64,000 nt of DNA, from the NCBI GenBank assembly GCA_022828105.1, contig JAJEJC010000007.1, positions 124,001-188,000 of the forward strand, in the 5' to 3' direction. The DNA is from Dehalococcoidia bacterium (GTDB taxonomy: Bacteria; Chloroflexota; Dehalococcoidia; Bin125). A model generated the notes under the pieces. It was given only the letters and a program-made list of their open reading frames with translations. It had not been told where the DNA came from and did not search any database. A program made the translations under genes and the position numbers. The first letter of the stretch is position 1. Every line of letters begins with the position of its first letter. Positions 26,588 through 30,138 of this stretch are shown here, piece by piece.

Positions 26588-26947
26588 ATGCCTCGAGTCA
26601 AGGGCGGACCGCGCGAGCGGCGTCGCCACAAGAAAGTCCTCAAGCAGACCAAGGGCCATCACGGCGTACGCAATCGGCTCTACCGCCGGGCCTCCGAGTC
26701 GCGCCTGCACGCCCTCTCCTACGCCTACGCGCACCGGCGCGAACGCAAGGGCGACATGCGTCGCATCTGGATTCAACGGATCAATGCCGCGGCGCGCCTG
26801 AATGGCACGACATACAGTCGCCTGATTCACGATCTCAAGCTGGCTGGTATCGAAGTCGACCGCAAGGTGCTGGCGGAGATGGCCGTCCATGACCCGAGTG
26901 GGTTCGCCTCGGTCGTCGAGCAGGCGCAGTCGAGTCAAGCAGCCTGA
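26588..26947 (+). CDS. rplT: Ribosomal protein bL20
   Basis: 119 residues, normal for bL20, an early 50S assembly protein that often represses its own operon by binding the m[21 protein letters not shown] opens the protein, where most homologues have RARHKKIL, followed by [14 protein letters not shown] and [18 protein letters not shown], then the globular domain with [24 protein letters not shown]. It lies 25 bases after rpmI. Confidence 0.98.
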
Positions 26948-27044: not shown

Positions 27045-27560
27045 CTAGGAGCTGGCCGCGAGGGCTGGCGTGCCGCTGGAGTCCGCTGCAAGCTCGGCAG
27101 CGTCACCGTCGGGCAAGTGATTGAGCAGCCACTGATCGCCGTCGTGATCGCGCAGCCAGGGGAGGACACTGGTCAGCGCAATGAACTCGCGCGGGTGCAG
27201 CGCGTTCTTGATCGCGCTGAATTCGATCTCGCGGCTGCGCTCGCGCCACTCGTCGGGCAGGTCGATGAAAGCGTCCTCGAACGCGCGAGCCGCAACGCGC
27301 GCATCTTCGACTTCGAGACTGAGCAATGCCCGCAGCCGTCGGACGGACCGCTCGTGGGCGTACTCAAGCGAGGCTGCGCCTTCGCGTCGAGCCAGCGCGC
27401 GCATCACTCGGCGCAACTCGATCGGCGGAAGTGCGGTTGCGTCGTAGAGCACCGCCGCGAGTTCGACGTGATCGCCGGCATCGTTCAGCCGGTGGGTGAG
27501 ATCACCGAGGTCGAAGGCGCTGCCATAGTTCTCGGACAGGTTCGGATGCACGTAGGTCAT
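27045..27560 (-). CDS. Unknown 171-residue protein under a CIRCE heat-shock operator
   Basis: No domain is recognised. The protein has no cysteine, no signal peptide and no membrane segment. It looks mainly helical with alternating acidic and arginine-rich stretches (RRVMRALARREG; RSVRRLRALLSLE), a DLPDEWRERSREIEF segment in the middle and a low-complexity acidic/Ala/Ser C-terminus from about 150. It is not an alpha-crystallin, GroES or DnaJ-type chaperone. The ATG at 27560 has GGAACGGAG upstream. A near-consensus CIRCE inverted repeat lies 41 bases before it, so it should be repressed by HrcA and induced by heat or misfolded protein. It follows pheT after 163 bases. Confidence 0.75.
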   Translation of the reverse strand: MTYVHPNLSENYGSAFDLGDLTHRLNDAGDHVELAAVLYDATALPPIELRRVMRALARREGAASLEYAHERSVRRLRALLSLEVEDARVAARAFEDAFIDLPDEWRERSREIEFSAIKNALHPREFIALTSVLPWLRDHDGDQWLLNHLPDGDAAELAADSSGTPALAASS

Positions 27561-27600
27561 GTTCGACTCCGTTCCTCGAAATCTGCTGTTGGATGCAATT

Positions 27601-27627
27601 CTGGCACTCTATGGGCGAGAGTGCCAA
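27601..27627 (-). promoter_or_regulatory. CIRCE element (HrcA operator)
   Basis: Minus strand: TTGGCACTC, nine bases, GAGTGCCAG. The CIRCE consensus is TTAGCACTC-N9-GAGTGCTAA; the arms match at eight and seven of nine positions and the nine-base spacer is exact. TTGGCA of the left arm can act as a -35, with CAGAAT 18 bases later as -10, so HrcA would cover the promoter. In the family's known biology this element controls groESL and dnaK operons. Confidence 0.8.
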
Positions 27628-27653
27628 CTCCGGGTGATTGCCTGAGCGCGACA

Positions 27654-27681
27654 GTGCTAAGCACGGCACACTGTGAGTGTG
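27654..27681. promoter_or_regulatory. Two palindromes upstream of the CIRCE site
   Basis: GTGCTAAGCAC (27654-27664) has 5-base arms and shares the GTGCTAA half of the CIRCE consensus. CACACT-GTG-AGTGTG (27667-27681) is a perfect 6-base inverted repeat. They could be a second, partial HrcA site and the pheT transcript end, respectively. Confidence 0.4.
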
Positions 27682-27723: not shown

Positions 27724-30138
27724 TCAGGAGTCGCGCAGCTTTGCCTTGAACTGCGATTGCAGGCGGCGCACGATGCCTCGGCGCGCCTTCTCGACATCGC
27801 GATCGGTCAGCGTTCGATCCGGAGAGCGGTAGTAGACGTGGAGCGCGACTGACTTTCGGCCGGCAGGGATCTGATCGCCGCTGTAGATGTCGAACAGCTC
27901 CACGCTCTCGACCAGTCCATTGTCTGCAATGGCCGCCGCGAGATCGCCCGCCGGACATGAGGCTTCGACGATCAGCGCAAGGTCCTCGACGGCGGCCGGG
28001 AAGACGGACGGCGCGGCGACAGTCTCGGACCGGGTCAGCAACGGAGCCAGCGCGGCGATGGAGAGTTCCAGCGCGAAGAGGTCGCCTTCGACATCAAACG
28101 CGGCGGCAGTCGCGGGCCGCACTTGGCCGATCAAGCCGACTTCACATCCGTCCACGCTCAGCTTCGCCGATCTTCCCTTGATCAGGAAGTCGTCGCCCGC
28201 TCCGGGGACGAGGTCAAACGTCGTCCCAAGACCGGTACCTAGCTGCTCCAACAGGCCTTTTGCGTCGAAGAAATCGAACTGGCGCGCGGGTTCACCGTGA
28301 AGCGATGCGGGGGTTTCTCCCCCAAGCAGTGCGAACAGCATTCGCGTTTCCGTCGGCTGGCCAGCCCCATTGGGCGTGAACGTCTTGCCCACTTCGAAGA
28401 TTCCGAGCGCGCTCCGCGCCTCCCGCTGATTCTGAGCGAACGTGCGCAGCCCCCAGGGCCGCAAGCTGGTTCGCATCCGGTCCCGCTCTGCGTTCATCGG
28501 ATTGAGCAGACGAACCGAGTCGATCTCTTCGTTGCCGATCGACGATGTGGCCGTCGACTCCTGTTGACCGACGGTCACGTAGGTGATGATCTCGTGCAGA
28601 CCCATACCGCTGAGCAGGTCGCGGATCCGTTCGCCGAGGTCGCGCTGGGGGTCGAGATCGGGATCCGGAACCGACCCAGGCAGCGGTGCGGAAGGCAAGT
28701 TGTCGTAGCCGATGATCCGCCCGATTTCTTCAATCACGTCGTCGGCCACGTTGATGTCGGAGCGCCACGGTGGGCAACTTACGGCAAAGCGATCGGGCGG
28801 GAGCCAACGGTTGGAGATGCCCAACGCGGAGAGCACGCCGCGCACTTCTTCCACGCTCGGCAGGATGGAGAGAATCTGCTCGATCCTGCGCTGCGTGACG
28901 AGCACTTGCGGTGCGTGCGCCTTGCCGGGAAACTCGTCGGCAATCCCTGCACAGGCAGTTCCGCCGGCGGTCTCGATGATCAACGCCGCCGCTCGCCGGG
29001 CCGCCAACTCGGCCAACTCCGGGTTGAGCGACTTCTCGAACCGCCGGCTCGCTTCCGTGCCCGACTCGGTATGTGCGGCTCGGCTGCGCCGAATCGTCGC
29101 TTCCTGGAAGTTCGCTGTTTCCAGCAACACGGTGGTGGTCGTATCGGAGATCTCGGAGTCGGCCCCGCCCATGATGCCCGCCAGTGCGACGGCGCGCTGG
29201 GCGTCGGCGATCACCAGGTCCTCGGGCTGCAGTTCGAGCTGCGATCCGTCCAACAACTCCAGTTGCTCGCTTGGACGCGCCCGGCGCACCACGATTCGAT
29301 TCTCCTGCAGCAGCTCGTAATCGAAGGCATGCAGCGGCTGGCCCCACTCGAGCATCACGAAGTTGGTCACGTCGACGATGTTGTTGATCGGTCGCATCCC
29401 GGCGGAGACCAGCGCGTCTTGCATCCACTGCGGTGAAGGTCCGATCCGAACTCCGTCGATCACGATGGCGGTGTACCGGGGACAGCCTTCGGGATCCTCA
29501 ATCGTCACGCTCGTGCGCTCGCCGATCGGTATGTCTGATTCGGGGAACGTTGCGGCGGGCTCGGTAACCGTGCTTCCGCTCAGGGCCGCAACCTCGCGCG
29601 CGATTCCCAAAATTGAATAGTGGTCGGGGCGATTGGGCGTTGGCTTGATGTCGAGCACGACATCTGCCAATACATCGGAGAGCGGCGTTCCAAGCGCGGC
29701 CTCGGTGTCGAGCACAAGAATGCCCTCATGCTCGTCCGAAAGTCCAAGCTCACGCTCCGAACAGATCATGCCCATCGAGGTCACGCCGCGAATCTTGCCG
29801 CGACGGAGCTTGCGCAACTCTCGAGTGCTCGGATCGATCAGTTGCGCGCCAACCTGGGCAAAGGCAATCGTCTGGCCCGTGTCCAGGTTCGGCGCTCCGC
29901 ATACGACCTGGAGCGGTTCGTCGGCGCCGAAGTCAACCGTGGCGAGTCGCAAACGGTCGGCATTCGGGTGCGGCTCAACGGCGGTCACGCGTCCGATTAC
30001 GACCTGATCCCATTCGCCGCCGCTGCGCTTGATTGCCTCGACTTCGGCCCCGGCCATGCTCAGCCGATGCGCTAGCTCCTCCACCGAGAAGTCCCAGTCG
30101 ACGTAGTTCGCCAACCACTTCAAGGGGACATCCATCAT
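27724..30138 (-). CDS. pheT: Phenylalanyl-tRNA synthetase beta subunit
   Basis: 804 residues, normal for the bacterial beta subunit of the alpha2-beta2 enzyme. Domains in order: tRNA-binding OB fold at about 40-150 (VIGRVTAVEPHPNADRL, QVVCGAPNL), B3/B4 editing domain at about 210-390 (RPINNIVDVTNFVMLEWGQPLHAFD), B5 near 410-480, the inactive catalytic-like domain, and the C-terminal anticodon-binding FDX-ACB domain (SVELFDIYSGDQIPAGRKSVALHVYYR). The tandem ATG at 30138 overlaps the pheS stop. The gene ends 163 bases before the CIRCE-controlled gene. Confidence 0.97.
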   Translation of the reverse strand: MMDVPLKWLANYVDWDFSVEELAHRLSMAGAEVEAIKRSGGEWDQVVIGRVTAVEPHPNADRLRLATVDFGADEPLQVVCGAPNLDTGQTIAFAQVGAQLIDPSTRELRKLRRGKIRGVTSMGMICSERELGLSDEHEGILVLDTEAALGTPLSDVLADVVLDIKPTPNRPDHYSILGIAREVAALSGSTVTEPAATFPESDIPIGERTSVTIEDPEGCPRYTAIVIDGVRIGPSPQWMQDALVSAGMRPINNIVDVTNFVMLEWGQPLHAFDYELLQENRIVVRRARPSEQLELLDGSQLELQPEDLVIADAQRAVALAGIMGGADSEISDTTTTVLLETANFQEATIRRSRAAHTESGTEASRRFEKSLNPELAELAARRAAALIIETAGGTACAGIADEFPGKAHAPQVLVTQRRIEQILSILPSVEEVRGVLSALGISNRWLPPDRFAVSCPPWRSDINVADDVIEEIGRIIGYDNLPSAPLPGSVPDPDLDPQRDLGERIRDLLSGMGLHEIITYVTVGQQESTATSSIGNEEIDSVRLLNPMNAERDRMRTSLRPWGLRTFAQNQREARSALGIFEVGKTFTPNGAGQPTETRMLFALLGGETPASLHGEPARQFDFFDAKGLLEQLGTGLGTTFDLVPGAGDDFLIKGRSAKLSVDGCEVGLIGQVRPATAAAFDVEGDLFALELSIAALAPLLTRSETVAAPSVFPAAVEDLALIVEASCPAGDLAAAIADNGLVESVELFDIYSGDQIPAGRKSVALHVYYRSPDRTLTDRDVEKARRGIVRRLQSQFKAKLRDS

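Follow-up and report, generated by a model that had tools for sequence, protein, structure and literature searches.

A Gene for an Unnamed Helical Protein Is a Likely Lineage-Specific Member of the HrcA Regulon in Certain Dehalococcoidia

Introduction

Does the HrcA repressor control, in some uncultured Dehalococcoidia (Chloroflexota), a gene that bears no chaperone signature? The question is raised by a 64-kb stretch of DNA (the window) from a Dehalococcoidia MAG of 2.74 Mb and 97% completeness (G000). An earlier note on this DNA had described an inverted repeat with the exact spacing and near-consensus arms of the CIRCE operator in front of a gene for a 171-residue, cysteine-free protein resembling no chaperone, and had proposed a new member of the HrcA regulon.

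In delta-proteobacteria and previously studied bacteria, groESL was described as the only constant member of the HrcA regulon (PMC545781). Extra targets have been described in single lineages, namely rpoH in Geobacter sulfurreducens (PMC545781), the effector gene wcw_0502 in Waddlia (PMC12038028), and further targets in the latter (PMC4989314). Within the open-licence literature, HrcA, CIRCE and Chloroflexi were joined only in work on Myxococcus groEL. That HrcA can have additional targets in particular lineages is an established principle; since such targets have already been found elsewhere, the novelty here lies in another member of a known regulon, whose product belongs to an unnamed protein family.

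The Operator and the Gene in the Window

The locus contains the following features:

26588 to 26947, plus strand: rplT (ribosomal protein L20), convergent; identity judged from sequence
27045 to 27560, minus strand: open reading frame with ATG start, unnamed gene; its 171-aa all-helical product belongs to the CIRCE-linked clade
27567 to 27570, minus strand: GGAG, likely ribosome-binding site 6 nt 5' of the ATG, read from the sequence
27601 to 27627, minus strand: predicted CIRCE (HrcA operator), TTGGCACTC-tcgcccata-GAGTGCCAG, an inverted repeat with an N9 spacer
27724 to 30138, minus strand: pheT (phenylalanyl-tRNA synthetase beta), upstream on the same strand; identity judged from sequence

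The predicted operator lies 40 nt from the ATG and matches the consensus TTAGCACTC-N9-GAGTGCTAA at 15 of the 18 arm positions, with the N9 spacing exact. When up to three mismatches to this consensus were allowed, it was the sole match in the 64 kb, and 100 dinucleotide shuffles of the window yielded none; base composition predicts 0.008 sites of this quality per 64 kb, or about 0.3 per genome. No plus-strand gene is available at the window locus as an alternative target of the palindrome. The encoded protein (19.05 kDa, pI 4.9) contains no cysteine. Both the repeat and the protein proved to be as the earlier note had described them. The dN/dS ratio of 0.04–0.21, about 0.13 (28 pairs, dS 0.55–1.4), indicates purifying selection, and the open reading frame is therefore a real gene. 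Because rplT is convergent, the transcription unit contains nothing after the 171-aa gene.

HrcA and CIRCE Sites in the Carrier Genomes

The repressor gene itself, whose absence the earlier note would have counted against its proposal, is present in the window's genome (PF01628, E 1.1e-33, G000:C1:73003-73719) and was found in 22/22 genomes carrying the 171-aa gene. A scan of the whole genome for TNGCACTC-N9-GAGTGCNA returned exactly four sites, none with one mismatch, and no site for a reversed control pattern. Eight further sites have two mismatches, a number that the reversed pattern also reaches, so these look like chance. Of the four, one stands before hrcA, which has dnaK and dnaJ downstream of it, one before groES-groEL, one before another groEL gene (groEL2) and one before the 171-aa gene. 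The same held when ten more genomes were added: in all 11, every CIRCE site stands before groES, groEL2, hrcA or the 171-aa gene, with no orphan site (reversed control: no site in ten genomes and one site in one). In G016, a genome of the same family in which the 171-aa gene was not found, there are just three CIRCE sites, located before the other three units. Within the hrcA operon of the window's genome, a possible small membrane-like open reading frame was noticed between dnaK and dnaJ on the opposite strand (L161:5418-5837, G000:C1).

Conservation of the Operator among Homologues

In the window's family (two genera), CIRCE was found upstream of 16/16 homologues. A profile search covering 393 genomes of the class Dehalococcoidia revealed distant homologues in two further families, of which five are intact (G061, G087, G214, G309 and G374) and share about 28–31% identity with the window protein. 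All five are preceded by CIRCE, which is perfect in three of them, bringing the total over three families to 21/21 intact homologues of the clade. Orthologues lacking the operator, the other finding that the earlier note had named as adverse, were thus sought by scanning relatives and none was found. Even a broken copy in G184 retains CIRCE; this copy (L054:1341-1720, G184:C4), with a frameshift and a truncation and followed by a PAC2 fragment, is an assembly error or a pseudogene.

Over 23 sites from the 21 homologues the arms show little or no variation, and the central spacer positions vary freely. The operator of G061 is a variant, TTAGCAGTC-N9-GACTGCTAA (L050:462-488, G061:C43), with symmetric, complementary changes in both arms; G061 has the canonical sequence at its other three CIRCE sites. 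Three members of the window's family (G007, G008 and G017) carry two tandem copies before the gene. The tandem pairs lie at L019:1382-1451, L020:1392-1461 and L021:2050-2158, and in L019 and L020 the embedded promoter described below occurs in the distal copy only.

The gene appears to be missing from several genera of the window's family and is therefore dispensable. No carrier outside the class was detected among 400 genomes drawn in a phylum-wide search, and a plasmid collection gave no match.

A sister family of unnamed helical proteins from Dehalococcoidia (alignment A3) shares a homologous core with the CIRCE-linked clade (profile-profile probability 98.5, E 1.5e-15). Its members end in WWxFW, a motif absent from the window protein, and, in contrast to the window's clade, none of 18 A3 loci has CIRCE. 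A single branch in the tree (UFBoot 100, SH-aLRT 99) parts all CIRCE-linked proteins, the window protein included, from the sister clade. The operator in all 21 intact homologues, its absence from the 18 sister genes and the one separating branch make the CIRCE link a property of one clade. It was probably gained once, with loss in the sister clade as the alternative, as the root of the tree is not fixed. The neighbourhoods of the sister genes are scattered and display no consistent theme. Some sister-family proteins are Met-rich (L177, L179 and L182), and among these some comprise two tandem copies of the domain and a C-terminal WWEFWK.

Comparison of genomes thus strongly supports the earlier proposal of a new regulon member, given the four-site regulon, hrcA in the carriers and CIRCE at every intact homologue: that HrcA controls the gene appears very likely. 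We also consider it likely that in certain Dehalococcoidia the gene constitutes a fourth, lineage-specific unit of the heat-shock regulon governed by HrcA. Since CIRCE is kept before every relative of this protein that could be checked, the protein is probably a so far unrecognised part of the heat-shock response.

A Putative Promoter within the Operator

Two further predicted features coincide with the operator:

27622 to 27627, minus strand: promoter-like -35 hexamer TTGGCA, from a consensus scan; it lies within the left operator arm
27598 to 27603, minus strand: promoter-like -10 hexamer CAGAAT, extended by TG (TGC); it overlaps the right operator arm at its end

These hexamers form the one promoter (9/12 matches, 18-nt spacer) found between 26900 and 27800 in a scan with the sigma-70 consensus, which may not hold for this class; shuffles gave a mean of 0.1. 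By the same criterion, an embedded promoter occurs at 12/21 loci of the gene, all 12 among the 16 of the window's family, versus 0/32 chaperone sites, and the other families keep the CIRCE motif without such a promoter. In the window's genus, the chaperone genes have TACGAT- or ACAAT-like -10 candidates before CIRCE, as read by eye. The operator arms may supply the -35 and the extended -10 in this genus, a reading that fits only the window's family.

The Protein and Its Partners

In the AlphaFold models the chain forms about ten helices, packed as a compact helical repeat, and its ends are disordered (pLDDT about 81, 80.6 for the first model; pTM 0.73–0.74); a second run with 26 sequences reproduced this helical core (mean pLDDT 80.8). 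The window protein has no Pfam match at E<=10 and its best NCBIfam match is irrelevant (E 0.31); its homologues likewise have no significant match in either collection. PHROGs profiles matched neither the protein nor its homologues significantly, and searches of PDB sequences with the single sequence and with a profile gave nothing significant. Foldseek against the PDB retrieved only generic helical-repeat matches (MA3, MIF4G, CID, HEAT-like; best E 0.27), and the VIA-align scores against the PDB (Z at most 7.5) fall inside the background for helical models. The impression that the protein resembles no chaperone agrees with the profile searches, which revealed no family; the structure comparison retrieved no specific fold. 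For the known families of chaperones, co-chaperones and protease adaptors, no curated Pfam or NCBIfam profile matches the protein. The functions suggested in the earlier note (a small chaperone, a protease adaptor or a ribosome-associated stress protein) are accordingly conjectural.

The sole functional hint comes from another family, f2, in which the gene is followed, without a change of strand, by one for a PAC2-family protein:

L048:1818-2741 and L050:1042-1962: extra PAC2-family gene (PF09754) directly after the CIRCE-led gene

The matches in these two scanned loci have E values of 2e-36 and 2e-45, and the same arrangement can be read in L049 and, in broken form, in G184. The PAC2 gene is an extra copy besides the other PAC2 paralogues of those genomes. 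The archaeal PAC2-family protein PbaB is a chaperone and proteasome activator (PMC3605417), and the neighbour of the f2 genes hints at protein quality control. The window protein itself is not homologous to PAC2, and in the window's genus the link is missing and the gene stands alone. Classical 20S proteasome assembly is an unlikely role for the PAC2 link: in neither G309 nor G374, both with the PAC2-linked operon, was a proteasome-fold gene detected, which makes a chaperone-like role of PAC2 likelier there than proteasome assembly. Elsewhere, only weak matches to proteasome-fold genes were obtained. A weak proteasome-family (PF00227) match lies in a 276-aa open frame of the window's genome (L157, G000:C4:44432-44953), which may encode a proteasome-like peptidase.

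Discussion

At normal temperature, HrcA would occupy positions 27601–27627. In the window's genus this segment would be operator and promoter at once, with the -35 in the left arm and the extended -10 at the end of the right arm, and bound HrcA would block RNA polymerase directly. The GroEL-titration model of HrcA activity comes from other bacteria. If it applies here, misfolded protein would occupy GroEL, HrcA would lose its activity, and the gene would be switched on together with hrcA-dnaK-dnaJ, groESL and groEL2. Its product, a small, soluble, all-helical protein, would then serve as a client- or partner-binding accessory of the chaperones. Such a non-catalytic helical accessory is a tentative assignment. 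In the same tentative vein, one may envisage a chaperone module controlled by HrcA, built around a small helical protein of an uncharacterised Dehalococcoidia superfamily that binds clients or chaperones and has a PAC2 partner in some lineages.

Next in rank comes a feedback regulator, which would bind HrcA or GroEL and tune repression instead of handling clients. The gene belongs to a very small regulon otherwise composed of hrcA and chaperones, and the model shows a helical scaffold in which no active site is obvious, both of which suit a regulator. However, G016 appears to lack the gene and yet keeps all three other CIRCE units, and in another family the neighbouring PAC2 gene speaks for a role in protein handling; we regard this role as rather unlikely. 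Less probable still is a role in support of the ribosome or of tRNA charging, with induction by heat to protect translation. It is suggested by the position of the window gene, which follows pheST and faces infC-rpmI-rplT, with pheT and rplT adjoining it. Nevertheless, this neighbourhood is local, whereas CIRCE is general: in other families the gene is flanked by different neighbours (PAC2, a MerR-like gene, a ferredoxin-like gene).

The remaining alternatives concern the palindrome rather than the protein. Selection could have kept it for its promoter elements (-35 and extended -10) and not as an HrcA operator, and indeed its arms coincide with promoter-like hexamers in 12/16 members of the window's family. 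Yet positions that lie outside the hexamers vary just as little; hrcA, groES and groEL2 of these genomes carry the motif too, with no embedded promoter; and other families retain it where no promoter reaches the criterion, all of which makes this explanation highly improbable. A chance inverted repeat before an unrelated gene, for which the expectation of about 0.3 sites per genome leaves some room, is refuted almost completely by the conservation in 21/21 intact homologues of three families and the absence from 18 sister genes.

Compared with the established HrcA/CIRCE regulon (groESL, hrcA-grpE-dnaK-dnaJ), the predicted HrcA-controlled unit shares the operator sequence, the N9 spacing and hrcA, and the same operator stands at the chaperone operons of the genome; the target here, though, is an unnamed gene without a chaperone signature. 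With rpoH of G. sulfurreducens and wcw_0502 of Waddlia it has in common CIRCE before a non-chaperone gene in one lineage only, but the gene products are unrelated, and the present case is predicted from sequence comparison. A conserved extra HrcA target would be a protein needed when chaperones are needed, which gives the unannotated family a testable role. The window's genus moreover allows two modes of repression by HrcA to be compared within single genomes: at the 171-aa gene, where the operator appears to overlap the -35 and -10, the repressor would cover the promoter itself, but at the chaperone genes it would act from a position immediately 3' of the likely -10. A minor feature of the window locus is a half-site-like TTAGCACT upstream of CIRCE (27650–27665, minus strand), perhaps what is left of a second operator of the kind that relatives carry in tandem.
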